Part shown: piece after piece, positions 4,309 to 21,663 of the stretch
How positions within the stretch are numbered: the stretch's first letter is position 1
How the letters are laid out: each line of letters begins with the position of its first letter
Source: a virus
Direction: 5' to 3' (one strand)
DNA: 34,762 nt
IMG/VR virus record: IMGVR_UViG_3300037132_000037
Coordinates: 1 to 34,762 of that record
Notes under the pieces: model-generated
What the model saw: the letters and a program-made list of their open reading frames with translations, nothing else
Database searches by the model: none
Told to the model about the DNA's origin: nothing
Position numbers and translations under genes: made by a program

Positions 4309-5193
4309 ATGAAAACTATTTATTTATGGGTAACTAATGAAGGATGGACTTCATTTGATTTTGATGCACCTGAAACAAAACAGGCATTAATTGATAGAAA
4401 AATAACTATCAGTAACTCTGCGGAAATCGGTGCCTATGCGAAAATCGGTGCCTATGCGGAAATCGGTTACTCTGCGAAAATCGGTGCCTCTGCGAAAATC
4501 GGTGCCTCTGCGGAAATCGGTGCCTATGCGAAAATCGGTTACTCTGCGGAAATCGGTGCCTATGCGAAAATCGGTGCCTATGCGGAAATCGGTTACTCTG
4601 CGAAAATCGGTGCCTCTGCGAAAATCGGTGCCTCTGCGGAAATCGGTGCCTCTGCGGAAATCGGTGCCTATGCGGAAATCGGTGCCTATGCGGAAATCGG
4701 TTACTCTGCGGAAATCGGTGCCTATGCGAAAATCGGTTACTCTGCGAAAATCGGTGCCTCTGCGAAAATCGGTGCCTCTGCGGAAATCGGTGCCTATGCG
4801 AAAATCGGTGCCTATGCGGAAATCGGTGCCTATGCGAAAATCGGTGCCTCTGCGGAAATCGGTGCCTCTGCGGAAATCGGTGCCTCTGCGGAAATCGGTG
4901 CCTATGCGAAAATCGGTGCCTCTGCGAAAATCGGTGCCTCTGCGGAAATCGGTGCCTCTGAAATAATTATAAAAACCCTTTTCATAACCGGCACGAAGCA
5001 TACTGTTACGTGGTGGGGAAAAGACATCATTAATATAGGATGTCATAAAAAAGAAATTGAATGGTGGCTTGAAAATGGTACGGCGGTTGCTGAAAGAGAA
5101 GGATATACTCCCGATCAGATTAACGAATACAGGCAGTATGTTGCTATTTGCGCTGAACTTCAAAAAAATACTACCATTGAGGTTAAACCATGA
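4309..5193 (+). CDS. Hexapeptide-repeat (left-handed beta-helix) protein
   Basis: 294 residues in three parts. Residues 1-33 are a unique N-terminus (YLWVTNEGWTSFDF). About residues 34-219 are about 30 successive six-residue repeats of the form I-G-[AY]-[YS]-A-[KE], matching the [LIV]-G-x4 hexapeptide rule of left-handed beta-helix proteins (three repeats per coil, so about ten coils). Residues 220-294 are a unique domain with HTVTWWGKDIINIGCHKKEI. The helix part resembles that of acyltransferases, but no catalytic His loop interrupts it, so a structural or binding rod is more likely than an enzyme. The start follows a leader (aactaaaaacctgaaaaa) similar to that before 7967. The stop codon forms part of the promoter motif at 5191. 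The role is unknown. Confidence 0.8.
   Translation: MKTIYLWVTNEGWTSFDFDAPETKQALIDRKITISNSAEIGAYAKIGAYAEIGYSAKIGASAKIGASAEIGAYAKIGYSAEIGAYAKIGAYAEIGYSAKIGASAKIGASAEIGASAEIGAYAEIGAYAEIGYSAEIGAYAKIGYSAKIGASAKIGASAEIGAYAKIGAYAEIGAYAKIGASAEIGASAEIGASAEIGAYAKIGASAKIGASAEIGASEIIIKTLFITGTKHTVTWWGKDIINIGCHKKEIEWWLENGTAVAEREGYTPDQINEYRQYVAICAELQKNTTIEVKP
4426..4959 (+). repeat. 18-bp tandem repeat array, about 30 units
   Basis: Each unit is atc-ggt-(gcc or tac)-(tat or tct)-gcg-(aaa or gaa), in frame with the host gene. Twenty-nine full units run 4426-4947, with a partial thirtieth. Variation is confined to three codons, and only three body types occur (GAYA, GASA, GYSA). Units 1-5 and 8-12 are identical in order, pointing to block duplication. 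Because the unit is 18 bp without stops, open frames appear on both strands across the array; these are by-products. Confidence 0.95.
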
Positions 5194-5233
5194 CAAATAT
5201 CAGCAATTACTATAAATCAAATAAATAAATTTA
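5191..5233 (+). promoter_or_regulatory. TGAC-type promoter/operator module, copy 1
   Basis: Near-palindrome TGACAAATATCA (5191-5202), then 23 bp, then the -7-like box TAAATTTA (5226-5233). The stretch aaatcaaataaataaattt just before and in the box is identical to that of the copy at 13016. The ATG at 5237 is only three bases after the box, so the transcript would be leaderless or nearly so. Confidence 0.7.
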
Positions 5234-5236
5234 GTC

Positions 5237-5401
5237 ATGAAAAATTTAAACGACATTAACCCCGAAAGTTTCTACCAAGAATTTAGCGAAGAAATATACG
5301 ATAGAGATGAAGACGTAACCGAAGAATCCCGAATCTGTGAAGCCTGTAAAGGCCAAATCATTGATGGCAAATGTATTTATGGATGTGATGATGTAATTTA
5401 A
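5237..5401 (+). CDS. Small acidic protein with a zinc-ribbon-like C-terminus
   Basis: 54 residues. The acidic N-terminal part (SEEIYDRDEDVTEE) is followed by CEACKGQIIDGKCIYGC, giving two cysteine pairs that could hold one zinc ion. It directly follows promoter copy 1. Too short for many gene finders but with clear coding bias. Function unknown; a DNA- or RNA-polymerase-binding regulator is one possibility. Confidence 0.6.
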   Translation: MKNLNDINPESFYQEFSEEIYDRDEDVTEESRICEACKGQIIDGKCIYGCDDVI

Positions 5402-5411
5402 AACTGATAAA

Positions 5412-5588
5412 ATGAAAAAACTATTAACTGTTATTATTGGAATATTGTTTGTTTGGCTTATTACACTACTTCCGCCATTGCCACAAAAAGAATTATCTAT
5501 TACTGCAATTCCTGTTATATTACTCGGAGTTGATGTGATATACTTTATTATGTTATGCTTCTGGTCTGATGATGATCCGGCATTTTAA
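5412..5588 (+). CDS. Small two-span membrane protein
   Basis: 58 residues with two hydrophobic helices (about 4-20 and 30-50), separated by PPLPQKE, and an acidic end (WSDDDPAF). Its ATG lies ten bases after the previous stop, and promoter copy 2 begins three bases after its own stop. An early membrane protein may act in superinfection exclusion, but nothing here shows that. Confidence 0.6.
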   Translation: MKKLLTVIIGILFVWLITLLPPLPQKELSITAIPVILLGVDVIYFIMLCFWSDDDPAF

Positions 5589-5590
5589 CC

Positions 5591-5633
5591 TGACATTTAT
5601 CATCTTTTATTAATCAATCCTTATGTAGCTTTA
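5591..5633 (+). promoter_or_regulatory. TGAC-type promoter/operator module, copy 2
   Basis: TGACATTTATCA (5591-5602), 23 bp, then TAGCTTTA (5626-5633). It lies before the recombination module; the ATG at 5647 is 13 bases after the box. Confidence 0.7.
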
Positions 5634-5646
5634 TAAAAAAATAATT

Positions 5647-6141
5647 ATGGAAACTAAAACCCACTGGAGAAAAGTGTTTTTATCTGACTATCTTGGTTCA
5701 TGCGACCTAGAGGACGGAAAGGATCTGAAGGCAGTAATTAAAAACGTTACTGTAAAAGAAGTAAAAGGAACGGACGGAAAGGCACAGGAACGGAATGTTG
5801 CGACCTTTACGGATGCTAATTTGAAACCGATGATTTTAAATTCAACTAATTGCAAGTTGATTAAGAAGTTTGCAAAGTCGGTCTTTATTAACGACTGGAA
5901 TAACGTTCCGATACAAATCTATGTAAAGGACGATATTAAGGCTTTTGGCGAGGTTACGGAAGGATTAAGGATAAGACCTACCCAGCCGGTAATGAGTAAG
6001 CCAAAACTTATCCCTACTATTCAGGCATGGAATAAAGCGATTGAGTATTTAAAAACTCCTGCCGGAACTATTGATGGAATTAAAACCCGGTACGAATTAA
6101 CCCCAGAGAATGAAGAACTTTTAAAAGCTGCAATTTTATGA
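5647..6141 (+). CDS. Recombination-module protein, partner of the YqaJ-type exonuclease
   Basis: 164 residues with no membrane segment. Features are the N-terminal HWRKVFLSDYLGS, a beta-rich body with LKAVIKNVTVKEV and LKPMILNSTNCK (about residues 59-70), and RIRPTQP near 110. This combination is familiar from Bacteroidota phages, where the gene sits next to a lambda-exonuclease-like gene; the body may be an OB-like fold. It overlaps the exonuclease start by four bases (ATGA). A single-strand binding or exonuclease-helper role is inference. Confidence 0.6.
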   Translation: METKTHWRKVFLSDYLGSCDLEDGKDLKAVIKNVTVKEVKGTDGKAQERNVATFTDANLKPMILNSTNCKLIKKFAKSVFINDWNNVPIQIYVKDDIKAFGEVTEGLRIRPTQPVMSKPKLIPTIQAWNKAIEYLKTPAGTIDGIKTRYELTPENEELLKAAIL

Positions 6142-6740
6142 TACATCACGACATCGACCAGAACTCTGAGGAATGGATGGAATTACGAGGCGGTAAATTT
6201 ACAGCTTCAACCTTTGCTGATCTTTTCATGAAAAAAGATACAAAGACTTACAAGAATGCGATTATCAAAGTAGCTTACGAAAGAGTTACCGGAGAATGTG
6301 AAGAAAGCTATTCAAATAAATGGATGCAAAGGGGACACGAAAAAGAACCATTTGCAGTTGAAAATTATGAACTACTTTCTTTTAATTCATGCGAGCCCGC
6401 CGGATTCTATGAGTATGACGAATTTACCGGAGCAAGTCCAGACCGGAAAATAATAGGTTTAAATGGCGGCTGCGAATTTAAATGTCCTTCATTTCAGATT
6501 TATAACGAGTATCTTGAAACCGGCAAGATTCCAAAGGATTACTACTGGCAGATTATCGGTCAATTACTTTGTACCGGATGGGACTTTATAGACTATATGC
6601 CGTATTCAAGTCCTAAACTAAAACAAATACTCATGAGAGTAGAAAGAAGTGAACATGAAGCATCTATTGAGCAATTGAAACAACAGTTATTAATTTGTAT
6701 TGAAGAGGTTAAAATATTAATAGAACGCATCAAACAGTAA
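6138..6740 (+). CDS. YqaJ-type (lambda exonuclease-like) recombination nuclease
   Basis: 200 residues. It has the order of conserved elements of the YqaJ/lambda-Exo family: EEWMELRGGKFTAS (11-24), GHEKEPFAVENYE (66-78), SPD with Asp102, GGCEFKCP with Glu113 and Lys115, and YYWQIIGQLLCTG (135-147). Asp102, Glu113 and Lys115 fit the PD-(D/E)xK metal site. These enzymes digest one strand of duplex DNA from an end and feed single-strand annealing. The neighbours on both sides (putative helper and SSB-like protein) agree with a recombination operon. Confidence 0.88.
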   Translation: MIHHDIDQNSEEWMELRGGKFTASTFADLFMKKDTKTYKNAIIKVAYERVTGECEESYSNKWMQRGHEKEPFAVENYELLSFNSCEPAGFYEYDEFTGASPDRKIIGLNGGCEFKCPSFQIYNEYLETGKIPKDYYWQIIGQLLCTGWDFIDYMPYSSPKLKQILMRVERSEHEASIEQLKQQLLICIEEVKILIERIKQ

Positions 6741-6744
6741 TATT

Positions 6745-7080
6745 ATGGGAAAAATGATTAGTGCAAAAATCAATCTTGAAAAGATTAAAGACGACCTTTT
6801 ATATGTCGGAGAAAAAGGAACATATCTGAATCTTACGATTTGGATCAACGAAGACAAGCCGGATAAATATGGCAACACAATTTCTATTCAGCAGACTACC
6901 AAAAAAAATGAGCCAAAAAACTATCTTGGAGAAGGTAAGTTTGTAGAGAAAAAAGAAGAGGAACAGTCTATTGAAGCCAAGGGCGAATGGCGTGGAAAGG
7001 TCGGGGTTAAGTCAATGAGTGACCCGAAAGATTTACCGGGAGCGGATATTGTACCGGACGGAGAAGAACCATTGTTTTGA
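6745..7080 (+). CDS. SSB-like protein with acidic tip
   Basis: 111 residues. The N-terminal half is strand-rich (YLNLTIWINED); the C-terminus is acidic and ends DIVPDGEEPLF, close in style to the acidic hydrophobic tip by which single-stranded DNA-binding proteins recruit partners. No classic SSB core signature was recognised, so this is a proposal from tail, size and place between exonuclease and NinB-like genes. A second in-frame ATG at 6754 is possible. Confidence 0.5.
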   Translation: MGKMISAKINLEKIKDDLLYVGEKGTYLNLTIWINEDKPDKYGNTISIQQTTKKNEPKNYLGEGKFVEKKEEEQSIEAKGEWRGKVGVKSMSDPKDLPGADIVPDGEEPLF

Positions 7081-7505
7081 AAAAAGTATCTGCCATAGGG
7101 ATTAAAGAGGACGGGAAAGCCTTCAGGGTAATCAATAGAGTTTTGTTGGATGTAGAACTATCTGGATTACCTAAAGGCCGTTACCGTCTTACTGTTGAAA
7201 AGCTACGAAAGAACAAATCAAACAGTCAACTCGCTTGGTTATATGGTCAAGTTTACCCTTTAGTCTTAACAGGACTGAATGATGCCGGATGGGAATTTAC
7301 TTCTTTGGATGAAGTTGATGAGTACTGCAAATCAATGTTTTCGAGTCGTGAAATACTTAACAGACATACCGGGGAAATATTGGACGTTCCGGGACTTAAA
7401 CGGAATATGTCAACCGTTGAAATGATGAGTTATGTTGAAGCCATAAGGGATTGGGCTTCTGAATATCTTAGCATAAACATACCTGATCCCGAAACAAACC
7501 TATGA
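7077..7505 (+). CDS. NinB-like recombination protein
   Basis: 142 residues, starting at TTG 7077 inside the upstream stop (TTGA overlap); no suitable ATG is near. It shows the family run KSNSQLAWLYGQVYPLV (about 47-63), then FSSREILN and a C-terminal helical region (STVEMMSYVEAIRDWASEYL) ending in IPDPE. This fits NinB/phage Orf-type proteins that help load recombination proteins on single-stranded DNA. The following gene is NinG-like, the same order as in the lambda nin region. Confidence 0.7.
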   Translation: MKKVSAIGIKEDGKAFRVINRVLLDVELSGLPKGRYRLTVEKLRKNKSNSQLAWLYGQVYPLVLTGLNDAGWEFTSLDEVDEYCKSMFSSREILNRHTGEILDVPGLKRNMSTVEMMSYVEAIRDWASEYLSINIPDPETNL

Positions 7506-7906
7506 AAAAACCCGTATCAATACCAAAACTAAAAACTAAGGCATTAAACCTTTATTCAGAGTATGTAAAGCTAAAAGCTCACAGCGAAGGAAGGTTATTC
7601 TGTTACACGTGCGGGAGTCCTTTACAGTTGAATACTTCTAATTGCCAATTAGGACATTATTTGTCCAGAGGTGCTTATCCTGGCCTTACGTTTCATCCTT
7701 ATAATTCGAGGCCTCAGTGTTACCGGTGCAACTGCCATTTGCATGGTGCTACTATTGAATTTCGGGAAAGGCTTATTATTGAACTTGGATTTGATAGTGT
7801 TAAAGAATTGGAAGATCAAAGACATATTCAGGTTAAATGGTCACGGTCAGATTTACATGAGATTATTGATAAATACTCAGGATTGATAAAAGAATTGAAA
7901 CAGTGA
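7502..7906 (+). CDS. ninG: NinG (Rap)-like Holliday-junction nuclease
   Basis: 134 residues. Two zinc-binding cysteine pairs (CYTC at 34-37 and CYRC at 73-76) flank GHYLSRGAYPGLTF (51-64), the core signature of NinG/Rap, which cuts branched recombination intermediates. The N-terminus PIPKLKTKAL-type (here SIPKLKTKALNLYSEYV) also fits. It overlaps the NinB-like gene by four bases. The stop codon falls inside promoter copy 3. Confidence 0.85.
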   Translation: MKKPVSIPKLKTKALNLYSEYVKLKAHSEGRLFCYTCGSPLQLNTSNCQLGHYLSRGAYPGLTFHPYNSRPQCYRCNCHLHGATIEFRERLIIELGFDSVKELEDQRHIQVKWSRSDLHEIIDKYSGLIKELKQ

Positions 7907-7946
7907 CTTTCGACATAAAATACTAATCCCACAATAAATATTTTTA
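7904..7946 (+). promoter_or_regulatory. TGAC-type promoter/operator module, copy 3
   Basis: TGACTTTCGACA (7904-7915), 23 bp, then TATTTTTA (7939-7946). The right half-site is the most divergent of the six copies, but the spacing is the same. The ATG at 7967 is 20 bases after the box. Confidence 0.6.
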
Positions 7947-7966
7947 CATAAACTAAAAACCCAAAG

Positions 7967-8080
7967 ATGCTTTATAACGACCATTTTCAAAACTTTAAGG
8001 TTTATCAAATACCGAAGGCGCAATTAGATATGTTTATAGAACGACCTGAAATAAGTTTAATTGAAATGATTGAGAAATAA
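7967..8080 (+). CDS. Very small protein
   Basis: 37 residues, hydrophilic and helical (PKAQLDMFIERPEISLIEMIEK). It starts after a leader aactaaaaacccaaag similar to that before 4309 and lies directly downstream of promoter copy 3. No known motif; could be a leader peptide or a small regulator. Confidence 0.45.
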   Translation: MLYNDHFQNFKVYQIPKAQLDMFIERPEISLIEMIEK

Positions 8081-8130
8081 CCCCTCAAAACTTTTTTAAT
8101 CGAATTGGATTGATTTATTGAAATAAAGAG

Positions 8131-8138
8131 TATATTTG
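8131..8138 (+). promoter_or_regulatory. Canonical-type promoter, -7 box TATATTTG
   Basis: TATATTTG is a full match to the Bacteroidota -7 box, with TTG elements 18-23 bases upstream. Unlike the six TGAC-type promoters it has no near-palindrome at 35 bp. It would serve the small ORF at 8163, the HNH gene and the replisome organiser. Confidence 0.5.
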
Positions 8139-8162
8139 TAATTGAATATTTAAAGTGTTACG

Positions 8163-8279
8163 ATGTTCAGAAAATTATTATTAAGCAATAAGGCCGGTTC
8201 CGGCTACAATATCCACGAAAGATTCGGTAACGCTTTTCTTAGTGGATTTTTTGTATCTGGTTCTGGCCTTTATATTTAA
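8163..8279 (+). CDS. Possible 38-residue peptide
   Basis: An ATG frame placed 24 bases after the TATATTTG box, ending six bases before the HNH gene. The peptide is basic at the start (MFRKLLLSNKAG) and Gly/Phe/Ser-rich afterwards. The stretch also holds a GC-rich inverted repeat (GCCGG-tt-CCGGC near 8189-8200) not typical of the AT-rich surroundings, so it could be an RNA element instead of a gene. Confidence 0.3.
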   Translation: MFRKLLLSNKAGSGYNIHERFGNAFLSGFFVSGSGLYI

Positions 8280-8285
8280 AGCGTT

Positions 8286-8720
8286 ATGAAAAAAAAGACT
8301 TATTCAGAGAAGTTAAAAAGTCCTCAATGGCAGAAGAAACGTCTTGAAATAATGAAACGTGATAAATTCACGTGTAAATTATGCGGAGATACTGAAACAA
8401 CATTACATGTTCATCATAAAGAATACATAGACGGTAACAATCCGTGGGAGTATGAAAATTCATATTTAGTAACTCTATGCGAAGACTGCCATACGGAAAT
8501 AGAGACTATTAAAAAAGACAATCCAGAAGTTTCTTTCGAAAAAATAAAGATTTTTAAGTCTGATAATTGGACTAACGGAAGTAAAATAATATTCACTAAA
8601 ACACCCCATAATTTAGCAATGTCAATTTATGATGATACCGGCAATTATGTATGTGGTTATAATTTTAACCGGGATATTCCTGATCTTATTAAGATATTAA
8701 AACAAGCGCAAAATGGCTAA
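8286..8720 (+). CDS. HNH endonuclease
   Basis: 144 residues. CKLC (30-33), HVHHKEYIDGNNPWEYEN (41-58) and CEDCH (65-69) form the zinc-ribboned HNH site. The N-terminus (SEKLKSPQWQKKRLEIMKRD) is typical of short phage HNH proteins. The C-terminal 70 residues are not recognised. It overlaps the replisome organiser start by eight bases. It could be a free-standing mobile endonuclease lodged in the replication module. Confidence 0.8.
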   Translation: MKKKTYSEKLKSPQWQKKRLEIMKRDKFTCKLCGDTETTLHVHHKEYIDGNNPWEYENSYLVTLCEDCHTEIETIKKDNPEVSFEKIKIFKSDNWTNGSKIIFTKTPHNLAMSIYDDTGNYVCGYNFNRDIPDLIKILKQAQNG

Positions 8721-9462
8721 AAGATTTACTGATACAAATAAATGGCGTAAGGACTTTATAAGGGGCTTACAAGGGGCTTATAAATTGCTTTGGTTGTATA
8801 TTCTTGATGAATGCGACCACGCCGGAATTTGGCACGTTGAATTAGACGTTGCAAGTTTAAGGATCGGGCATGAACTTGATGAGAAAAAAACACTCGAAGC
8901 ATTCAATGGTCATATTGTTGTTTTTGACAAAGGACATAAGTGGTTTATTCCTGACTTTATAGATTTTCAATATGGGGTTTTAAATCCTGAAAATAGGGCA
9001 CATAATTCTGTTTTAGAACTTTTGGAAAAATACAAACTTAAGGGGCATCTAAGGGGCTTACAAGGACGTAAGGATAAAGAAGAAGATAAAGAACAGGATA
9101 TGGATATGGTTAAAGAAGAAAGCGAAATTTTTGAAATTTTCAGAATAAGCTATCCGGGTACAAAAAGAGGGCATGATGCAGAATTTGAAAATCTAAAAAA
9201 GAAACACAAAGACTGGAAGAAAATTATTCCACTTTTATCTGACTCTTTAAATTATCAAAAATCAGCTCGTGAAATAAAAAGACTTTCGGGCGGGTTTATT
9301 CCTGAATGGAAAAACTTACAAACATGGATTAATCAAAAATGTTGGGAAGAAGAAATTGAAACTAATAATATATCAAATGGAACCAATAAAAAATCTAGCG
9401 GTGCAAGCAATGAAGCAATTGCAAGAATTATTGCCGAAAAATTCGGAACTGATTCTAATTAA
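8713..9462 (+). CDS. Replisome organiser / replication initiation protein
   Basis: 249 residues. The N-terminal winged-helix-like domain (KRFTDTNKW, then YKLLWLYILDECDHAGIW at 23-40 and VASLRIG) is followed by a charged linker (KDKEEDKEQDMDMVKEE, about 116-135). The C-terminal domain ends in FIPEWKNLQTWINQKCWEEE, the pattern of phage replisome organisers of the DnaD-related kind. Such proteins bind iterons within their own gene and help load the helicase. The gene contains two sets of 11-bp direct repeats, which encode the twice-occurring RGLQG. No helicase gene was found, so the host helicase is the expected partner. Confidence 0.7.
   Translation: MAKRFTDTNKWRKDFIRGLQGAYKLLWLYILDECDHAGIWHVELDVASLRIGHELDEKKTLEAFNGHIVVFDKGHKWFIPDFIDFQYGVLNPENRAHNSVLELLEKYKLKGHLRGLQGRKDKEEDKEQDMDMVKEESEIFEIFRISYPGTKRGHDAEFENLKKKHKDWKKIIPLLSDSLNYQKSAREIKRLSGGFIPEWKNLQTWINQKCWEEEIETNNISNGTNKKSSGASNEAIARIIAEKFGTDSN
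8749..9072. repeat. Two clusters of 11-bp iteron-like repeats, candidate origin
   Basis: Cluster A: AAGGACTTTAT (8749), AAGGGGCTTAC (8760), AAGGGGCTTAT (8771), head to tail. Cluster B: AAGGGGCATCT (9040), AAGGGGCTTAC (9051), AAGGACGTAAG (9062), head to tail. The 11-bp period puts each on the same DNA face. Both are inside the replisome-organiser gene, as with the lambda O gene and its origin. No further AAGGGGCTTAY copies were noticed elsewhere. Origin function is inference. Confidence 0.6.
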
Positions 9463-9850
9463 TGGCGAAGTAAGTCTTTACAATGGATCACTTTCAACTC
9501 CATGTGTAATACAAAATATTAAAAGAATTAAAAGTGCTTTCCCTTCTTTGCCTGAGGGTTTTTATGAGATATTTGCGGAAAGAATAATTGATTGTGTTTT
9601 TACAGATGAGAGGCTGGATGATGCGGTTAATAATGTAATTGATAATTGCGTTTATCCGACTCCAACTATTGCGCAATTTATTAGTTTTGATAAAAGAGTA
9701 AAGGTTTTTAAATATCCTGATATTATTAAAATGATTGAGGATGGAGACCCCGAAGCTTTCAGCCGTTATAAAAGAATTGAAATGCCAGGATTACCGGAGG
9801 CGGTTTGGATTCACGTGAATGACATTGCAAAGTATAAAATCAAAGTATGA
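9377..9850 (+). CDS. Replication-module protein of unknown function
   Basis: 157 residues from the ATG at 9377, which follows an A/T-rich leader; in-frame ATGs at 9356 and 9410 are alternatives. All overlap the end of the replisome organiser gene. The protein is soluble and mostly helical: LPEGFYEIFAERIIDCVFTDERL, then DAVNNVIDNC and TPTIAQFISFDKRV. It resembles a protein that follows the replisome organiser in Bacteroidota phages. A helicase-loader or initiator-partner role is suggested by place only; no ATPase motif is present. Confidence 0.6.
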   Translation: MEPIKNLAVQAMKQLQELLPKNSELILINGEVSLYNGSLSTPCVIQNIKRIKSAFPSLPEGFYEIFAERIIDCVFTDERLDDAVNNVIDNCVYPTPTIAQFISFDKRVKVFKYPDIIKMIEDGDPEAFSRYKRIEMPGLPEAVWIHVNDIAKYKIKV

Positions 9851-9890
9851 CATTTATCATTGCACGTTAAATTGATATTGTCGAATTTTA
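9848..9890 (+). promoter_or_regulatory. TGAC-type promoter/operator module, copy 4
   Basis: TGACATTTATCA (9848-9859), identical to copy 2, then 23 bp and GAATTTTA (9883-9890), which departs from TAnnTTTA at its first base. The ATG at 9904 is 13 bases after the box. Confidence 0.6.
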
Positions 9891-9903
9891 CAAAAAAAAA
9901 GTT

Positions 9904-10122
9904 ATGGAAATAATAACCAGTCAGACAGTAAAAATAAAGAAGCACCTCGAAAGTGGTAAAAGCATAACCCCGCTCGAAGCACTTTACATGTTCGGTTGCT
10001 GGGCTTTGAGTAGTCGGATCAGCGACCTGAGAAAACAAGGTGTAAATATCAAGTCCGAATTAATTGAGATTACATCAGCCGGAAAGACCAAAAGAATTTC
10101 TAAATATTCAATTATAAAATAA
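9904..10122 (+). CDS. Helix-turn-helix protein (HTH_39 type)
   Basis: 72 residues covering a single winged HTH: TVKIKKHLESGKSITPLEALYMFGCWALSSRISDLRKQGVNI is the classic pattern of this phage family (short helix, SITPLEAL, then SRISDLRKQG as recognition helix), with a C-terminal wing (KTKRISKYSI). It lies directly behind promoter copy 4, and its stop overlaps the next start. It could regulate early promoters or act at the origin. Confidence 0.75.
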   Translation: MEIITSQTVKIKKHLESGKSITPLEALYMFGCWALSSRISDLRKQGVNIKSELIEITSAGKTKRISKYSIIK

Positions 10123-10730
10123 TGGAATATACACCGGAAATAATAATAAAAACAGTATCGGACTTTTATAAAGTCCCTATCGAGATGACTGTTTCAACAA
10201 GTAGAAAAGGCGAATACATTACAGCCAGACAGGTATCAATGTATTTCATGCGGGAACTTATTGATAAAATGCCGTTAAGGGAAATAGGATTAAACTTTTC
10301 AGGAAAGGAAAGATTTAAATCTCATTGCACCGTATTACACGCCTGCAAGACTGTTAATAATATGATTGACACGGACAAATATTATGCAAAGAATATCAAT
10401 AAACTTCTTGAGCTATTTGAATGTGGAATTGACGAAATGCAAAAAGAGTCTGAAGATGAGTTTAGAACAAACGCACTTGTCTTTGAAAATACCCATTTAA
10501 GAAACGAGATAATAAAACTAAAGTCGGAATTAAGTAAATTACAGGGAGTCATTTATGGGCTGAAGGCTGCAAAAAAGCAGATCAAAATAACTAAACGGGA
10601 TTACGTCAAAAAGAAAATTGAACAACTCGAGAAGCCTAAAATTCAGGAACCGGAAAAAATGACTAATCCCTTTTCACACATTCCCGCACGTTCATACGAG
10701 TATAAATCTTATTCACCTCATAATAACTAA
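10122..10730 (+). CDS. DnaA domain IV-like protein with coiled-coil tail
   Basis: 202 residues. Residues 1-95 match the DNA-binding domain IV of DnaA: IIKTVSDFYKVPIEMT, RQVSMYFMREL (36-46), LREIGLNF and HCTVLHACKTV (68-78), which correspond to the basic loop and DnaA signature. No AAA+ ATPase part is present. After it come a coiled coil (about 108-140) and a basic, Pro-containing tail. It could bind DnaA-box-like sites at a phage origin, or compete with host DnaA. It starts at the stop of the HTH gene (TAATG). Confidence 0.8.
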   Translation: MEYTPEIIIKTVSDFYKVPIEMTVSTSRKGEYITARQVSMYFMRELIDKMPLREIGLNFSGKERFKSHCTVLHACKTVNNMIDTDKYYAKNINKLLELFECGIDEMQKESEDEFRTNALVFENTHLRNEIIKLKSELSKLQGVIYGLKAAKKQIKITKRDYVKKKIEQLEKPKIQEPEKMTNPFSHIPARSYEYKSYSPHNN

Positions 10731-10732
10731 CC

Positions 10733-11053
10733 ATGACACTAACTATTATTATCGTATTCTTTGCAATGGCACTTATTATCGGTGCATGGCTTTATTGCGA
10801 ACTCGTAAAAGAAGTATCCGCAGATACGGCTGAAAGTACTTATAACCTGACTTACTCAATGATTCAGAGCGACATTGATAGGGCAAAATTAACCCTTGAA
10901 AACTATCACGACATTGATGATAAGATTGAACGGTTAAGTAAATTGCCCGGGAATAACCCTGAAAAGACTGTGATTCTGGATTTGACCTTTCGGATTAAGT
11001 TTGAGAGGTTTATTGATGAACATTCACCGGAGGAAATATTTACAGGAGAATGA
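10733..11053 (+). CDS. Single-span membrane protein
   Basis: 106 residues: N-terminal hydrophobic helix (TIIIVFFAMALIIGAWLYC, about 4-22), then a soluble helical, acidic domain. Could be a membrane anchor for a host-directed function. Overlaps the methyltransferase gene by four bases. No family recognised. Confidence 0.55.
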   Translation: MTLTIIIVFFAMALIIGAWLYCELVKEVSADTAESTYNLTYSMIQSDIDRAKLTLENYHDIDDKIERLSKLPGNNPEKTVILDLTFRIKFERFIDEHSPEEIFTGE

Positions 11054-11586
11054 AACAGCCAATTATTTCAAGAGTTTGGGAAATGCCAAACAGTAATACA
11101 TTTAAAATTAAGTGTATTAATAAGTTAATTCATAAATATTATAGAGTTGATTTAAGGTGTGAAAGTATTGATCCTTTCGCTAATAAATCAAGGCTTGCAG
11201 GAATTACAAACGATCTAAATCCGATATATGGTTGTGATTATTCAATGGATGCTGTTGAATTTCTTAAAATATTTAAAAATAATTCTATTGATTTTGTTTT
11301 TTATGATCCGCCATATTCACTCAGACAGGTATCGGAATGTTATAAAAATGTAGGAATAGCCGTAACAACAGAAACAACTCAGAGCAGTTGGAGAACAAAA
11401 CATATAAATGAAATATCCCGCATTGTAAAACCGGATGGAATAGCAATGTGTTTTGGATGGAATAGTTCAGGAATAGGAAAAAAACGAGGATTTGAGTTAA
11501 TTGAAATATTATTAGTTGCACATGGTGGAAGTCATAATGATACTATTGTGACGGTTGAAAGGAAACTACCAACATTATTTACATGA
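11050..11586 (+). CDS. Solitary adenine-specific-type DNA methyltransferase
   Basis: 178 residues. DFVFYDPPYS (81-90) holds the DPPY catalytic motif of amino-methylating DNA methyltransferases. DPFANKS (41-47) stands where the SAM-binding D/F-x-G-x-G motif would be, and IVKPDGIAMCFGW follows as expected. The C-terminus GGSHNDTIVTVERK is typical of a small phage family annotated as adenine methyltransferase. No target-recognition domain or restriction partner is next to it, so it probably protects phage DNA or alters regulation. Confidence 0.7.
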   Translation: MKQPIISRVWEMPNSNTFKIKCINKLIHKYYRVDLRCESIDPFANKSRLAGITNDLNPIYGCDYSMDAVEFLKIFKNNSIDFVFYDPPYSLRQVSECYKNVGIAVTTETTQSSWRTKHINEISRIVKPDGIAMCFGWNSSGIGKKRGFELIEILLVAHGGSHNDTIVTVERKLPTLFT

Positions 11587-11810
11587 AGCAAACCAGCTTA
11601 AACGAGATTCAGCCGAATAGTTCAGCTGATCTTATAACCAAAATCGGGAAAGACAAAGTTAAAAAGTGTCATAAGCCCGACACTTCAAAAATGATCTCAA
11701 TAAGTGTTCCTTCATTGCGCCTGGTCTATTTCGTCAAGAATAAGACACGCATGGACAAACGGATTAGAGAGATAAAGAAATTAGGCAGAGAGTACTTTAT
11801 AAATAATTGA
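11583..11810 (+). CDS. Small basic hypothetical protein
   Basis: 75 residues, Lys-rich, with a central strand segment (MISISVPSLRLVYFV) and a basic C-terminal helix (RMDKRIREIKKLGREYF). Overlaps the methyltransferase stop by four bases. The basic helix suggests nucleic-acid contact, but no known fold was recognised. Confidence 0.55.
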   Translation: MKQTSLNEIQPNSSADLITKIGKDKVKKCHKPDTSKMISISVPSLRLVYFVKNKTRMDKRIREIKKLGREYFINN

Positions 11811-11811
11811 T

Positions 11812-12036
11812 ATGAAAAGCGAAAAGCAGATCAGAGAGAAAATTCTTCAACATGAGATTAAAATTGAAGAGCAGTTTAAAAAACCTATTCCTGATGTGGA
11901 AATATTAGACACTTTAAAAAAAGGAAGGATTGCATTATTCTGGATATTAATAGACAAGGACAAAGTAGAACCCGACGAACTTACTAAAAAGATTGAATGG
12001 GAAATAACCTGTCAGGAAGCAAGTAATTTATTTTAA
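11812..12036 (+). CDS. Small charged hypothetical protein
   Basis: 74 residues, helical, with alternating Lys/Glu (EKQIREKILQHEIKIEEQFKK). No membrane segment or cysteine motif. It begins one base after the upstream stop. Confidence 0.55.
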   Translation: MKSEKQIREKILQHEIKIEEQFKKPIPDVEILDTLKKGRIALFWILIDKDKVEPDELTKKIEWEITCQEASNLF

Positions 12037-12081
12037 CTTACCTTTGTCCTAATATTGAGATTATTCATTTAAAAAAGCGCA

Positions 12082-12492: not shown

Positions 12493-12725
12493 AACAAAAG
12501 GTATTAGAAATGATTTCCAAAGGGCCTGATGAAGGAAATGAATGTCTGGCAGAAAAGATTGTAAGTCAATTTACCGAGTTCATTGAATGGAAGGATCATC
12601 CAAAGAATGAATTTAACACCTGCTTTAACGGAACCGATAAAACCCGTCCAAAGGTTTGTTATGAGAAAAAAGACAAACATTACACTTTGCAGGAATTGTT
12701 TACTTATTGGAATAATCATAAATAA
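12489..12725 (+). CDS. Small protein of the FxxFIxW family, copy 1
   Basis: 78 residues. FTEFIEWKDHP near the middle and HYTLQELFTYWNNH at the end match a pattern (F-x2-FI-x-W ... Y-[TS]-[LI]-x-[EQ]-[LV]-[FY]-x2) also seen in the proteins at 14210 and 15129. No known function. The shared pattern points to a paralogous set, present three times in the small-gene region. Confidence 0.6.
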   Translation: MKQKVLEMISKGPDEGNECLAEKIVSQFTEFIEWKDHPKNEFNTCFNGTDKTRPKVCYEKKDKHYTLQELFTYWNNHK

Positions 12726-12733
12726 TTAACAAA

Positions 12734-13006: not shown

Positions 13007-13015
13007 GTAAAAGCA

Positions 13016-15639: not shown

Positions 15640-16635
15640 ATGGATCTAAGCATAATAATTTCATACCATCAGGAAGGATTGAACTTCATAAAAGAAACTA
15701 TTAATTTAATACAGAATACTATTGATATTTCAGATTATGAGATAATCGTGGTAGATGATTATTCTGACAGACCTATTAAATTAGAAGGCGTTAAAGTTAT
15801 AAGGCATGTGCGAAATTATGGAGTTGGAGCGGCTTTTGATACAGGAATAGGAATAGCACAATCAGATAATATTTGGTGGCAAGGAGCGGACATAAGATTC
15901 GCTTCAAATAACTGGGCATCAAAGATGATTAAAGCACTCGACGAAAACCCAAAGTCTTTAATCTGTACTTCGGTAGTTCATCTGTCTGCTGGGACTCCGG
16001 ATCTTACATTTGAGATGAGTCGGGAAAACTTTGTTTATAATGGTGCAACTATCTTAATGGCTTACGGAGATGAAGAAAGGAATATCTTAAAAGCTCAATG
16101 GCTTCCAAGAGAAAGCCGGTTATTAAAACGAGGTGATGAACTTGCAAAGAAAATGTTATTGCCTTATGGTGTTTATTATTCTGATACGGAATGTTACGAA
16201 GTACCATGTATTTTGGGGGCTGCTTATGGGGTTAAAAAGTCCTGGTATAATCATATTGATGGTTTTTGGGGACATATTAAATGGGGATCATTAGAGCCGT
16301 ATATATCTTTAAAAAGCTGGCTATTTGGTGGTAATTGTATGACTGCTCCGCACATCGAAACAGGGCATATCTTTAATGACACACAAGGCAGACATGGATA
16401 TAAAGACCTTTCACACTTGGCTTATAATTCTATGTTGGTAGCTTGGTTGCTTTTTAATAACAAGGAACGTGAATATCTGGTTAATCAATTAATACCTCAT
16501 GACTTTGTTATTAAGGGAAAAGAAATGATTAATGATAGACTTCCTGAGATACTTGTAAAACGAGATGAATATAAAGCTAAAAATAAAATGACAGTTGATG
16601 AGTTTATAACCCGATTTAACCTAAAATTCTTATGA
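15640..16635 (+). CDS. GT-A family 2-type glycosyltransferase
   Basis: 331 residues. LSIIISYHQEG at the start, EIIVVDDYSD (34-43), and GADIRF (82-87) at the place of the DxD metal/nucleotide-sugar motif give a family 2 GT-A fold. The middle has ILGAAYGVKKSWYNHIDGFWGH, an acceptor-side pattern also seen in GalNAc-transferase-like enzymes. No membrane segment, so it acts in the cytoplasm. It opens the eight-gene glycan module and overlaps the next gene by four bases. Donor and acceptor cannot be told from sequence. Confidence 0.8.
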   Translation: MDLSIIISYHQEGLNFIKETINLIQNTIDISDYEIIVVDDYSDRPIKLEGVKVIRHVRNYGVGAAFDTGIGIAQSDNIWWQGADIRFASNNWASKMIKALDENPKSLICTSVVHLSAGTPDLTFEMSRENFVYNGATILMAYGDEERNILKAQWLPRESRLLKRGDELAKKMLLPYGVYYSDTECYEVPCILGAAYGVKKSWYNHIDGFWGHIKWGSLEPYISLKSWLFGGNCMTAPHIETGHIFNDTQGRHGYKDLSHLAYNSMLVAWLLFNNKEREYLVNQLIPHDFVIKGKEMINDRLPEILVKRDEYKAKNKMTVDEFITRFNLKFL

Positions 16636-17426
16636 GAATAAAACAATTATTCAGTGCCTTTGGTAATCACTTTGCCGAGGCTATTGCAAAGAAGTATGAT
16701 CTTGAACTTAATAATGAATCCTTAAAAATGGATGAGCCCCTTTTCATGTTTGGGTGCTATGGAGGTAAGCAGATTTGGCGGGCGATCACTCACAGCGCCG
16801 GAGGGCAAATGACTGTTATCTGTTGGGCGGGTAGTGACGCTAATAATCATGGAGGATTCCCTGGAGTGTTTAATCAATTCCCGAACATTAAACATATCGC
16901 TATCTCAAAATGGATCGCTGCCGACTTAGGCATGAACGCTCTATCGTTTTATCGTATTCCCGTAACTCCTTACGATCACTCGGATATTAAACCCGAACCA
17001 TTAGGCGATTCAATTTACATGTATAAACCCGATTCAAGAGTTTATAATGGAGGTATCTATCAACAAGTAAAAGAAGCTCTGCCGGAATATAATTTCATTG
17101 AATGTTCATGGGGTGATCATACCAGAAAGGAGATGCTTGATATTTACAAAAAATGTTTCATTGGTTTGCGGTTTACCGAACATGACGGACTGAGTAATAC
17201 GGTTTGCGAAATGGGTATGATGGGACGTTACATGGTAAATAATGGCGAACTCCCAAATTGTCTGCACTATGATTCAAACAATATTAGTGAGATAGTCAAT
17301 ATGATAAAAAGAGCAAGTATTACTATGGGATCAATGGCCTTAGCAAAAGGGATGTCTCATAATGTTGCAATATATTTAAACATTGGAGACTCATTCCTAA
17401 ATACCGAATATTATGAATCCCTTTAA
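16632..17426 (+). CDS. GT-B type glycosyltransferase
   Basis: 264 residues. The C-terminal half has IYKKCFIGLRFTEHDGLSNT and VCEMGMMGRYMVNNG, the pattern of GT4-like enzymes where a Glu pair and Gly/Arg-containing segment hold the nucleotide sugar. The N-terminal half (FMFGCYGGKQIWRA, VICWAGSDANNH) is a short version of the acceptor domain. It is smaller than the usual 350-400 residues. Overlaps the following aminotransferase-like gene by 14 bases. Confidence 0.65.
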   Translation: MRIKQLFSAFGNHFAEAIAKKYDLELNNESLKMDEPLFMFGCYGGKQIWRAITHSAGGQMTVICWAGSDANNHGGFPGVFNQFPNIKHIAISKWIAADLGMNALSFYRIPVTPYDHSDIKPEPLGDSIYMYKPDSRVYNGGIYQQVKEALPEYNFIECSWGDHTRKEMLDIYKKCFIGLRFTEHDGLSNTVCEMGMMGRYMVNNGELPNCLHYDSNNISEIVNMIKRASITMGSMALAKGMSHNVAIYLNIGDSFLNTEYYESL

Positions 17427-18015
17427 AGTAGTTGAAATGTTTGAAGAGGCTATGGCGGAATATACAGGATCACCTTATGCCGTTGCAGTAGATAACTGCA
17501 CTGATGCGCTTTTCCTTTGTTGTAAGTACATGGAAGTTGAGGCGGTTAATATTCCTTCACGGACTTATTTGAGTGTCCCACAATCAATTATTCACGCAGG
17601 AGGAGAAGTTATCTTTGATACCCGTATGAACAACTGGAAAGGCATCTATCAGTTATGGCCCTACCCGATTTATGATGCTGCCAAAAGACTAACTTCGGGA
17701 ATGTGGAATGGGGGGACAATGTGTTTAAGTTTTCATATTAAGAAACATTTGAAGATCGGGAAGGGGGGAATGATTCTGACTCCAAATAAAAAAGCTGTTG
17801 AATGGTTTAAGAAAGCACGTTACGAGGGGCGGTCTGCCGTTCCTTATGAGCATGATAATATTGACATGCTTGGCTGGAATATGTATATGTCTCCTGAACA
17901 AGCTGCAAGAGGATTAACACTACTTCAAAACTATCCTCTTCACAATGAGGATTTAGAAGAAGTTTATAAAGATTTAACAGATTTTCCGGTATTCAGAAAT
18001 TGCACAAAAATATGA
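17413..18015 (+). CDS. Short DegT/DnrJ/StrS-type sugar aminotransferase
   Basis: 200 residues, about half the usual 370. YAVAVDNCTDALFLCCKYM (22-40) matches the G-T/C-AL pocket; IYDAAKRL has Asp88 for the PLP ring; SFHIKKHLKIGKGGMI (106-121) puts Lys111 where the PLP-binding lysine lies; then KARYEGRS. The C-terminal small domain is missing, and no frameshift or leftover piece follows, because the next gene overlaps. The enzyme would put an amino group on a nucleotide-keto-sugar. Whether the short form is active is open. Confidence 0.7.
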   Translation: MNPFKVVEMFEEAMAEYTGSPYAVAVDNCTDALFLCCKYMEVEAVNIPSRTYLSVPQSIIHAGGEVIFDTRMNNWKGIYQLWPYPIYDAAKRLTSGMWNGGTMCLSFHIKKHLKIGKGGMILTPNKKAVEWFKKARYEGRSAVPYEHDNIDMLGWNMYMSPEQAARGLTLLQNYPLHNEDLEEVYKDLTDFPVFRNCTKI

Positions 18016-18722
18016 AAGGAACAGTAGCACTTCCGCTCTGGAATATGCCAGATATTACATGGCTTTTTATGGAGTCATTATGTAATCAGATAAAACCGTG
18101 CGAGGGTTGGGAATTAGTAATCTTTGAGGACGGAGAGAATCAGCTAGGAGAAGATTTCTTTTACTCTTATGAAGAAAGGCTTTCACAGGTAGGTTGTGAA
18201 CAGATTAAATATTTCAACTCCGAGAATCGTTATCCACTTTCAATGAAATGGATTATGATAGCAAGTCAATCTGAAGGCGATTACTATTGTCTTTGTGCTG
18301 GAGATAATTATTATTCACCTTACATGCTTATTGAGGCGGAAAAGTATTCCAAAGAGGCGGACTGGTGCGTAACTACAAAAGGATATATTTACGATATTAA
18401 TCTTGATAAGGTTTGTAGGTATGATTTCTTTGCTCCCTTCGGACTTCAAATGACTGCCAAAACAGAACTTGTAAAGCGGTTCAAATTTGAAACTGTAAAT
18501 AAGGGAGTTGATAAATGGTTTTCAAATCACATCAAAGATAAAATGATATATGAGCCGAAGAGGAATACGTTAATCACCAATGGAAGGAATCATATCTCTT
18601 ATGAGCGGGAGGAATTATTTATACATCCTGCGTCTCCATACTACAAAACCAAAACTAAACTTGAAAATATTATCCCAGTAGAAATCGCTAAAAAACTAAG
18701 ACTATGCCGAAAATCACAGTAA
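18012..18722 (+). CDS. Glycosyltransferase, GT-A type
   Basis: 236 residues from the ATG at 18012, which overlaps the upstream stop (ATGA); an in-frame TTG at 18000 is less likely. TVALPLWNMPDITWLFMESL, ELVIFEDGEN (34-43) and EGDYYCLCAGDNYYSP (88-103), with AGDN at the DxD place, point to a family 2-like fold, though shorter and more divergent than its neighbours. The C-terminus has a DKWFSNHIKDKM helix. Overlaps the next gene by 19 bases. Confidence 0.6.
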   Translation: MKGTVALPLWNMPDITWLFMESLCNQIKPCEGWELVIFEDGENQLGEDFFYSYEERLSQVGCEQIKYFNSENRYPLSMKWIMIASQSEGDYYCLCAGDNYYSPYMLIEAEKYSKEADWCVTTKGYIYDINLDKVCRYDFFAPFGLQMTAKTELVKRFKFETVNKGVDKWFSNHIKDKMIYEPKRNTLITNGRNHISYEREELFIHPASPYYKTKTKLENIIPVEIAKKLRLCRKSQ

Positions 18723-19390
18723 TCGTAACAGCCTACATGGATAGGGGTTGGATTAAAGAAGCTATTGACAGCGCAAAGAATCAGACATTTGATGACTATG
18801 ATATTATCTTTTGTGCTGATGGAAACCCAGAGTTGAAAAAATACGCCGGGGATATTCCGTTCTATAATTTCCCGAAGTCAAATTATGCCAATATGGTTAA
18901 TCAGGCCATGAGTAAAGCCAGGGGGGAATGGATCAAAGTATTGCACGACGACGATCTGTTAAATCCTACATGCTTACAGGATTTATACGCTGCACGGGGA
19001 ACGGCGGATCTTGTCTATGCTAATGCTCTTTGTTTTAATGATGATGATTTCGGTGGGGCGAAACAATACAAACCACCCAAAGAAGTTACTATTAAGACTC
19101 TTCTTCCAATTGGTAATAATCCGGTAAATTTTGAAGCTGAGCTTTTCAGAAGGGATATGTTTATTGATGTTGGAGGCTTTGATCCGAAGTTGGGATATGC
19201 AGAGGATTACGATTTTCTTCTTAACTTGCTGACGAAAGGTTATAAAGTAACTTATTGCGATAAGGATGTAGTTTGGTACAGACACCATGCAAGGCAAATC
19301 ACAGGCAATGAACCTCAGATGAGACATGATGAACATGAGTATCTTCAGAGTAAGTATATGGATATAATCGTAAATCAAATAAAATGGTAA
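18704..19390 (+). CDS. Family 2 glycosyltransferase
   Basis: 228 residues, a complete compact GT2: ITVIVTAYMDRGWIKEAIDS (4-23), QTFDDYDIIFCADG, NQAMSKARGEWIKVLHDDD with the DDD metal motif at 82-84, GGFDPKLGYAEDYDFLLNL (the ED catalytic region) and WYRHHARQIT near the end. Transfers a sugar from a nucleotide donor with inversion; donor and acceptor unknown. Overlaps the fucosyltransferase gene by seven bases. Confidence 0.88.
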   Translation: MPKITVIVTAYMDRGWIKEAIDSAKNQTFDDYDIIFCADGNPELKKYAGDIPFYNFPKSNYANMVNQAMSKARGEWIKVLHDDDLLNPTCLQDLYAARGTADLVYANALCFNDDDFGGAKQYKPPKEVTIKTLLPIGNNPVNFEAELFRRDMFIDVGGFDPKLGYAEDYDFLLNLLTKGYKVTYCDKDVVWYRHHARQITGNEPQMRHDEHEYLQSKYMDIIVNQIKW

Positions 19391-20103
19391 GCGTAAATCT
19401 CAAGGGCGGATTGTGCAACATGCTTTTTCAGATTGCCTTTATTGAGGATTTGGCTCGAAGGGGCGGATTTGAGGTAAGATATCCTGATATTGATGAGGTA
19501 TTCCAAAGACTCCTGCTTTCGGGTCATTCTCAAAACTGTTATGACTATCTGAATATCTTTAAGAACTTTGACTGGAACAAGAATCAGGATAAACCAATGC
19601 CGAATAGGATAGTAAGTATTCCGCATCACTATGAGTATATCGAGCCGGTTGATAATATGATTTACGACGGATACTTTCAGAGTGAGAGATATTTTGACAG
19701 GGCAGAGACTTTGAAATTGTTTGAGTTTGATTATTGTCATTATTATGAATGGGGATATAATACTTGTTCTATTCATTATCGGAAAGGCGATTATATTTCT
19801 AAATATTCAGATACCTACGAAATTCCAGATGACGAGTATTATGGGAAAGCAATGCGATTAATTGATGCCCATGAATATTATACATTTACTGATGATAGGT
19901 CTTATCATGGTACTGATTATGAAGATTTATATATGATGTCACAATGTGATCATAACATCATTGCAAACTCTTCCTTTAGTTGGTGGGGTGCTTACCTTAA
20001 TCAGAACCCAGACAAGAAAGTTATTGCACCCGCTAAATGGTATAAACCCGAATCAAAATACAAAGCAACTGATATTTATTGCAAAAACATGATAGTAATA
20101 TGA
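19384..20103 (+). CDS. GT11-type fucosyltransferase (alpha-1,2-like)
   Basis: 239 residues. It carries the GT11 landmarks in order: KGGLCNMLFQIA (7-18), SIHYRKGDYI (129-138, the HxRxGD donor-binding motif), YYTFTDD (165-171) and NSSFSWWGAYLNQNPDKKVI (195-214). These enzymes add fucose from GDP-fucose, mostly in alpha-1,2 linkage to galactose. No GDP-fucose synthesis genes are in the window, so the donor must come from the host; many gut Bacteroidota make it. Confidence 0.88.
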   Translation: MVSVNLKGGLCNMLFQIAFIEDLARRGGFEVRYPDIDEVFQRLLLSGHSQNCYDYLNIFKNFDWNKNQDKPMPNRIVSIPHHYEYIEPVDNMIYDGYFQSERYFDRAETLKLFEFDYCHYYEWGYNTCSIHYRKGDYISKYSDTYEIPDDEYYGKAMRLIDAHEYYTFTDDRSYHGTDYEDLYMMSQCDHNIIANSSFSWWGAYLNQNPDKKVIAPAKWYKPESKYKATDIYCKNMIVI

Positions 20104-20756
20104 TCGGACAAACTAATCTTTCAAATCGTAACTCATGGATAGCAGAACAATTAAAATCTATTCCATCAGGAAAACGAATACTCGATGCCGGAGCTGGTGA
20201 GCTTCAATGGAAACCTTATTGCGGTCATCTTGACTATGTAAGTCAGGACTTTTGTCAGTACAAAGGCGGAGGGGATGGTAAAGGACTTCAATGTAAAACA
20301 TGGGATGTATCAAAAATTGATATAGTTTCCGACATAACTGATATACCAGAGGTTCATGGACATTTTGACGTAATACTTTGCTCCGAGGTTTTAGATCATG
20401 TCCCTGATCCCGTTGAGGCGATTAACGAACTTGACAGAGTATTGACAAGAGGAGGCACAATGATTTTAACTGAATCGTTTTGCGGATTAACTAACCAGGC
20501 TCCATACTTTTTCCAAACCGGGCTATCTGAATATTGGTATAAAGAACATTTAAAAGATTACGATGTCCAGATTCAATATAACGGTAACTATTATGAATGG
20601 ATGGCACAAGAAGTTCATAGACTCGCTTCATGGCGGAAAATATCTGAAATGACAAAAGCAATGATATTAAGGGATTTGGAGATTGCTTCATCTGAAGATA
20701 AAACTTCCCATGAAATACTCTGTTTTGGATTATTAGTAAAAGCTATAAAATTATGA
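20100..20756 (+). CDS. SAM-dependent methyltransferase, class I
   Basis: 218 residues from the ATG at 20100, which overlaps the upstream stop (ATGA). RILDAGAGE (motif I) near residues 27-35 and HFDVILCSEVLDHVPDPVEA with LDRVLTRGGTMIL fit a UbiE/COQ5-like small-molecule methyltransferase. In this place a sugar O- or N-methyltransferase is likely. Overlaps the next gene by four bases. Confidence 0.8.
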   Translation: MIGQTNLSNRNSWIAEQLKSIPSGKRILDAGAGELQWKPYCGHLDYVSQDFCQYKGGGDGKGLQCKTWDVSKIDIVSDITDIPEVHGHFDVILCSEVLDHVPDPVEAINELDRVLTRGGTMILTESFCGLTNQAPYFFQTGLSEYWYKEHLKDYDVQIQYNGNYYEWMAQEVHRLASWRKISEMTKAMILRDLEIASSEDKTSHEILCFGLLVKAIKL

Positions 20757-21256
20757 GCTATTCGCAAGTAGGACAGGATTTATGGGTTCTTTCTTTAATT
20801 AAGAAAGGGACGTTTTTAGACATTGGTTGCAGAGGACCAAAGGATATTAATAATACTTTATTATTGGAAGAGAACGGATGGACTGGTGTGTCTATTGACA
20901 TTGAGGATTATTCCGAAGCATGGAAAGACAGAAAGACACAATTCATTTGTGCCGATGCAATTACTTTTGATTATAGGAGTATTCAGAACGGATCGGCTTT
21001 AGTTGATTATCTTAGTCTTGACATTGAAGGCAATGGCGATAGGTTTAAAGCACTTGAGAAAGTCATCAATGATGGCTTTGAGTTTAAGTTAATCACTATT
21101 GAACATGATTCTTATCGTGTCGATCCCGAACTTGAAAGAGAACCACAGAGGAAACTATTATTATCTTTAGGTTATAAATTTGCGTTTAAAGATGTTGGTG
21201 ATCCGCAACCTTATGAGGACTGGTATTTTAATCCGAAGTATATATGCCTACCATAA
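20753..21256 (+). CDS. FkbM-type methyltransferase
   Basis: 167 residues. SYSQVGQDLWVL (2-13), GTFLDIGCRGPKDINNT (19-35), then GWTGVSIDIE and DYLSLDIEGN (85-94) are the marks of the FkbM family, which methylates hydroxyls on sugars and natural products. It closes the glycan module and overlaps the HNH gene by 13 bases. Confidence 0.8.
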   Translation: MSYSQVGQDLWVLSLIKKGTFLDIGCRGPKDINNTLLLEENGWTGVSIDIEDYSEAWKDRKTQFICADAITFDYRSIQNGSALVDYLSLDIEGNGDRFKALEKVINDGFEFKLITIEHDSYRVDPELEREPQRKLLLSLGYKFAFKDVGDPQPYEDWYFNPKYICLP

Positions 21257-21534
21257 AACTGCTCCCTAGAAGGGGTGTCAGGGTTGCGACTACTCGTAAA
21301 AAAGAGTATCAGGAAATATATCAGGATAAGAGATGGCTTAAACTTCGTAACCATAAAAGACGGGTTAATCCACTTTGCGAAAGATGTGAAAGTCTTGGAA
21401 AGGTTACTCCGACAAAAGAGGTACATCATAAGATTCCGTTTGATGTTGATCCTGATTTAGCGTTTGAATGGGAAAATCTTGAATCGCTCTGTTGCGATTG
21501 TCATGAAATAAGACATAAAGAATTAAAACTCTGA
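21244..21534 (+). CDS. HNH endonuclease of the packaging region
   Basis: 96 residues. NPLCERCESLGKVTPTKEVH and HHKIPFDVD with LESLCCDCHEIRHKEL give the CxxC...HH...CxxCH HNH site of the small phage nucleases that stand next to terminases and help cut at cos sites. Here it is separated from TerS by a two-gene cassette. Cos packaging is inference from family knowledge. Confidence 0.85.
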   Translation: MPTIKLLPRRGVRVATTRKKEYQEIYQDKRWLKLRNHKRRVNPLCERCESLGKVTPTKEVHHKIPFDVDPDLAFEWENLESLCCDCHEIRHKELKL

Positions 21535-21551
21535 TTCATTTTTCGACAAGG

Positions 21552-21591
21552 TGAGGGGATGATATTCCGGCAACCATACCGGCTCCCCTCA
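21552..21591 (+). terminator. Probable terminator / stem-loop after the HNH gene
   Basis: TGAGGGG (21552-21558) pairs with CCCCTCA (21585-21591), and CCGG / CCGG can pair inside. The stem is followed by A/T-rich sequence (tttattatg) and not by a clean T run, so strength is uncertain. It would end the glycan-module transcript. Confidence 0.6.
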
Positions 21592-21620
21592 TTTATTATG
21601 TTATTAAACATATCCCAACA

Positions 21621-21663
21621 TGATAAAAATCATGTATTTGTTTGAATAGGTAGCATATCTTTG
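21621..21663 (+). promoter_or_regulatory. TGAC-type promoter/operator module, copy 6
   Basis: TGATAAAAATCA (21621-21632), part of a perfect palindrome CATGAT-aaaa-ATCATG, then 23 bp and TATCTTTG (21656-21663), a perfect -7 box. It lies between the stem-loop and the zinc-finger gene; the ATG at 21682 is 18 bases after the box. Confidence 0.75.

Follow-up and report, generated by a model that had tools for sequence, protein, structure and literature searches.

The window analysed here is a virus record of 34.8 kb from IMG/VR (34,762 nt, IMGVR_UViG_3300037132_000037), which contains phage recombination, replication and terminase genes. A sequence-only reading of this window had described a six-copy class of promoter or operator, in which a near-palindrome starts exactly 35 bp before a -7-like box. 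The sequences, coordinates and 35-bp offset of all six sites were confirmed and are presented in Table 1. The description as a six-copy class held only in part: the copies at 5191, 5591, 9848, 13016 and 21621 are real, but the copy at 7904 is degenerate.

Table 1 Palindrome-and-box modules in the window, with weight-matrix (PWM) scores and gene context.
Site	Span	Strand	Palindrome	Box	PWM score (bits)	Gene context
1	5191-5233	+	TGACAAATATCA (5191-5202)	TAAATTTA (5226-5233)	23.9	Downstream: 54-aa ORF at 5237
2	5591-5633	+	TGACATTTATCA	TAGCTTTA (5626-5633)	27.0	Downstream: recombination cluster with phrog_21613 protein (5647), YqaJ/RecE-like exonuclease, NinB-like and NinG-like proteins
3 (degenerate)	7904-7946	+	TGACTTTCGACA	TATTTTTA	7.8 (noise level)	Directly 3' of ninG-like gene
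4	9848-9890	+	TGACATTTATCA	GAATTTTA (9883-9890)	26.5	Downstream: winged-HTH gene (PF14090), DnaA_C-type HTH gene, methyltransferase
5	13016-13058	+	TGACATTTGTCA	TAAATTTG (13051-13058)	33.2 (window maximum)	Downstream: cluster of small ORFs
6	21621-21663	+	TGATAAAAATCA	TATCTTTG (21656-21663)	29.6	Downstream: operon at 21682, just upstream of terminase genes

In three of the copies (5191, 7904 and 9848), the initial TGA doubles as the stop codon of the preceding gene, which at site 1 is a hexapeptide-repeat gene. Most of the latter (4309-5193) is built from DNA repeats that are nearly perfect and encode units of the hexapeptide-repeat type (PF00132). Copies 1 and 5 share a 19-bp stretch, as had been claimed. 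The further claim that no TTTG -33 element is present at the expected place also held; the element is missing because the right half-site, that is the TCA of the palindrome together with the next base, fills its place. The -7 box of site 4 reads GAATTTTA, and a G is found at that place in 6 of the 45 sites overall. The TGA-N6-TCA core of the inverted repeat is present in the five window sites and in 40 further sites. This core was a selection criterion, but the AAACA flank and the T-rich bias of the right arm were not. Over the full 22 bp of the palindrome, the flanks of the window sites are a poorer fit than those of sites in related phages.

Several additional features were observed in the window. 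A second palindrome, ATGTT-N4-AACAT, occurs in three copies (3824-3837, 21598-21611 and 22749-22762) compared with 0.15 expected, and all three lie in gaps: one precedes the first early gene, one is located a little upstream of site 6 and one precedes the terminase genes. These copies could be sites of a phage regulator. A long stable hairpin (8143-8290; -41.1 kcal/mol, z -3.8) was located inside a 206-nt gap that has its own TATATTTG box at 8131; comparison of the hairpin with Rfam gave no match, and it may represent a structured RNA. Between the early and late genes (15640-21256), the first residues of the encoded proteins resemble glycosyltransferases, a DegT-type aminotransferase and methyltransferases, as judged by eye only.

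The word TGAY-N4-RTCA was enriched in the window, with 9 occurrences compared with 3.2 expected and none of 100 shuffles reaching 9. An NAnnTTTR box was found exactly 35 bp after 5 of these 9 words, an arrangement observed 0 times in 60 Markov-simulated genomes, and every other spacing to NAnnTTTR occurs at most once in the window. The window was also scanned on both strands with a weight matrix whose training set comprised 36 sites, all of them from other phages. The five highest scores, from 33.2 to 23.9 bits, were obtained at 13016, 21621, 5591, 9848 and 5191, all on the coding strand, while the best score among 12 simulated genomes was 13.1 bits. Since the TGACTTTCGACA sequence of copy 3 is not a TGAY-N4-RTCA word and its score lies inside the range of simulated maxima, the window has five solid copies and one apparently decayed copy.

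Relatives of the window extended the motif to AAACATGAY-N4-RTCATNGTTT, with the start of TGA located exactly 35 bp before NAnnTTTR, and the logo of the pooled sites reads AAACATGAY-WWWW-RTCATNGTTT. The viral records were gathered as gene-related or motif-selected contigs. A first pattern scan of viral contigs returned 32 hits, which is about the number estimated for chance; several of these, such as one at 61% GC (G016), are probably chance matches, and only multi-copy or gene-related records were kept. Over a dozen uncultured phage records contain about 3-10 copies each. All of the first seven records studied were brought in by a single strict site apiece and hold 4-8 wider-kind sites in total; the additional sites count as independent because only the one strict site was used in selection. 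When pooled over phages, the 35-bp spacing occurred 30 times, whereas other spacings averaged 1.3 occurrences. Of 41 boxes, 35 were intergenic and 32 had a co-directional ORF starting no more than 120 bp downstream. The motif, its spacing and its multiplicity are direct observations, as is its conservation.

Comparison of the same gaps in related phages demonstrated that two of the window positions recur. At the ninG position, corresponding to 7904 in the window, an intact copy is present in G011, L005 and L266 in place of the apparently decayed window copy, and the G011 copy also begins on the ninG stop codon. At the junction of genes 9356 and 9904 (wHTH), the location of site 4, corresponding sites were found in G022 (14331, on the stop codon of a gene-9356 relative) and G013 (39495, before a gene-9904 relative). 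Strong sites were also present in L266, L267 and L269, loci fetched by protein similarity alone. Site 2 lacks positional support since relatives of gene 5647 were without the corresponding gap and site. Several relatives had no sites, among them L006-L009 (88% identity in one protein), so the trait is patchily distributed. In two viral records (G551 and G547) and two genomes (G073 and G084), one palindrome is flanked on both sides by boxes at or near 35 bp, an arrangement that may allow one FNR-type site to serve a pair of divergent promoters.

All phages carrying the array are uncultured. No multi-copy array was detected in the 19 named phages examined, which were mostly phages of Bacteroidota: the stretches read from phi39:1, Nekkels_1, Freya_1, Danklef_1, mumin6-4, 6H and FCL-2 contained nothing above 11.3 bits, and the 12 further named-phage records had at most one match each to a loose pattern. 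A megablast of 5000-13200 against named phages gave no match, and the matches returned for 30-nt blastn queries look like chance. A close prophage was not found in 396 Bacteroidota genomes, in which only distant terminases (31-34% identity) were detected, and the host of the phage was not identified.

The same motif, spacing and box were observed in cellular genomes, demonstrating that the phage motif belongs to a host promoter class. The stringent motif with its box was found in more than 119 stretches of GTDB species genomes, compared with about 4 expected by a base-composition estimate; the observed count is a lower bound. The titles listed were nearly all Bacteroidota, mainly Flavobacteriaceae, with 2 Ignavibacteria and 1 cyanobacterium. 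When the spacing was left free (8-37) in 121 Flavobacteriaceae genomes, 55 of 63 hits had a spacer of exactly 22 bases, equivalent to 35 bp. The genes downstream of the host sites encode predominantly CcoI-type ATPases (41 loci) and CcoS/FixS (26). Smaller groups comprise HemN-like radical SAM proteins, universal stress proteins (Usp) and cytochromes, and a Cu-oxidase with a cytochrome c domain, other oxidoreductase-like proteins and a Crp/Fnr gene were also found.

A divergent FNR-like gene, the product of which has a CxxC N-terminus, was located beside the site at 40 of the 41 ccoI loci, usually 14-21 bp away; this adjacency, like the identity of the phage and host promoter class, was observed directly. 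The FNR-like protein of one locus (L146) matches PF00027 and PF13545. Its closest relatives of known structure include 2gau, of the Crp/Fnr family, and FNR-type regulators, among them 5cvr; NtcA is one of the sequence matches. The recognition helix of the flavobacterial FNR-like proteins (L146 and ccoI loci such as L165) reads ES[AC]IR, compared with ETISR in aligned FNR, and could fit the altered half-site ACATGAY. No description of the box in Bacteroidota or phages was found in the literature searched; subscription papers and regulon databases were outside the search, and an earlier description of the host box is not excluded. Within the same literature, the earlier statement that no Bacteroidota phage regulon with such a layout has been described still holds.

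In Flavobacterium psychrophilum, TAnnTTTG spans -12 to -5 (PMC9723704). The 35-bp spacing combined with this box position places the palindrome at a computed -47 to -36, centred at -41.5; no phage start sites were mapped. A centre at -41.5 is the class II activator position of CRP and FNR, and the fixed distance between palindrome and sigma box was observed in both phages and host genomes. Under the proposed mechanism, the modules would be class II promoters that depend on a Crp/Fnr protein. The activator would be supplied by the host, namely the FNR-like regulator that Flavobacteriia encode next to ccoI in divergent orientation. Bound to AAACATGAY-N4-RTCATNGTTT around -41.5, it would stand in for the absent -33 element and bring host RNA polymerase with the primary sigma factor to the TAnnTTTR box (-12 to -5). 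In this way, the phage would couple its operons for recombination, replication initiation and methyltransferase, and the one preceding the terminase genes, to the oxygen-limitation state of the host. At site 1, the predicted +1 lies within the ATG annotated for the 54-aa ORF; a different start point, a leaderless mRNA or a target other than this ORF are each possible there.

Class II promoters activated by a host FNR-like regulator are the best explanation of the modules and a likely one, with binding, activation, the low-oxygen signal (based solely on the host target genes), the timing in infection and the presence of the regulator in the phage's own host all being inferred. The phages themselves have no recognisable Crp/Fnr gene: a PF13545 search of 12 phage records gave no match over the cut-off, and a PF00027 search of 18 phage records gave none. 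Weak PF13545 matches in G019, G024 and G011 were below the cut-off, and that in G019 is to a gene related to window gene 8713, which encodes a replication-initiation type protein and not a Crp protein. The sequence-only reading had suggested that the near-palindrome may replace the -33 region as either an activator site or an operator. The activator version is supported by relatives and host genomes, because the half-sites are arranged as in 22-bp Crp/Fnr sites, the computed centre is -41.5 and the site lies before host cbb3-oxidase maturation genes beside an FNR-like gene; the operator version is less likely. Membership of the site in a host regulon goes beyond what had been proposed and is likely, although inferred from sequence alone.

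The nearest precedent is provided by T4-like cyanophages, which have 1-16 predicted NtcA sites each with a mean of 8.9 (PMC3037559). NtcA is itself a Crp/Fnr-family protein, so that in both cases a phage genome carries several predicted sites for a host regulator of this family. NtcA senses nitrogen/2-oxoglutarate, whereas the regulator proposed here is FNR-like with host targets in low-oxygen respiration, and the present modules are found in phages of Bacteroidota, with the TAnnTTTR box at a strictly kept distance of 35 bp. Class II CRP and FNR promoters of E. coli are centred at -41.5, and the modules resemble them in the 22-bp inverted repeat, the TGA-N6-TCA core, the computed centre and the lack of a good upstream promoter element. 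They differ in the box, which is the Bacteroidota sigma TAnnTTTG, and in the half-site, which is ACATGAY compared with TTGAT for FNR or TGTGA for CRP. The host targets are of the same kinds as in FNR/FixK/ANR regulons (fixS, fixI/ccoI, hemN and usp), including the FNR-like gene beside fixI/ccoI, but the literature searched describes neither the Bacteroidota box nor any use of it in phages. T4 MotA middle promoters use an activator site in place of the upstream promoter element, as the modules appear to do at middle phage genes; MotA is phage-encoded, whereas no phage-encoded Crp/Fnr regulator was found here.

Several other explanations were considered. Imitation of the pattern by AT-rich gaps and TGA stop codons has in its favor that a TGA stop codon begins 3 of the 6 copies, but it is contradicted by the simulations, the spacing peak, the independent matrix ranking and the positional conservation, and is all but excluded. 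Chance is refuted for 5 of the 6 sites, and only copy 3 is indistinguishable from chance within the window. The palindromes could instead be operators for a repressor that holds the genes off, for example in lysogeny, as they are palindromic and promoter-proximal. This reading is very improbable given the exact computed centring at -41.5 where the -33 element is missing, in phage and host promoters alike, and given that a non-exhaustive search of the window recognised neither an integrase gene nor a repressor gene.

The identity of the activator also admits alternatives. A phage-encoded protein, such as the PF14090 winged-HTH or DnaA_C-type protein, could drive a phage-specific middle regulon that merely resembles host FNR sites. 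In support of this, both genes lie directly downstream of site 4 and a DnaA_C relative is present in 6 of 8 motif-bearing phages. Against it, the host ccoI/ccoS promoters have the same half-sites, spacing and box, DnaA_C relatives also occur in phages without sites (L009, Freya and Danklef), and no protein family is common to all eight motif phages compared. Such an activator is considered highly unlikely, but an unrecognised small phage DNA-binding protein is not excluded. Recognition of the site by a different host Crp/Fnr paralog (a carbon, nitric-oxide or general stress sensor), with a signal other than oxygen, is an unlikely but less remote alternative. In its favor, several Crp/Fnr genes are present in these genomes, with a second, more distant type at some loci, the L146 protein has fewer N-terminal cysteines than aligned FNR, and a bioreactor study placed Flavobacteriales homologs in a MalR-like carbon group (PMC8510549). 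It is opposed by the single FNR-like family adjoining the site at 40 of 41 ccoI loci and by a target list typical of FNR/FixK/ANR regulons. The choice of paralog rests on gene adjacency, and another of the several in Flavobacteriia could bind.

The FNR-like reading would provide a low-oxygen box usable for Flavobacteriia, in which AAACATGAY-N4-RTCATNGTTT is separated by the 35-bp offset from TAnnTTTG. It would also offer a sequence-based means of assigning uncultured phages to those Bacteroidota hosts that possess an FNR-like regulator. To our knowledge, few phages are known to place the expression of their core genes under a host regulator that responds to the environment, the main example being cyanophage NtcA; if true, the present reading would contribute a case of the FNR type from a large, poorly studied phage group and would predict oxygen-dependent infection. 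A bolder interpretation, which we regard as more doubtful than probable, is that widespread uncultured Bacteroidota phages make recombination and replication conditional on host oxygen limitation, with the host FNR-like sensor deciding whether an infection proceeds, pauses or is productive. Should this be correct, infections would change along the oxygen gradients of sediments, biofilms and stratified water.
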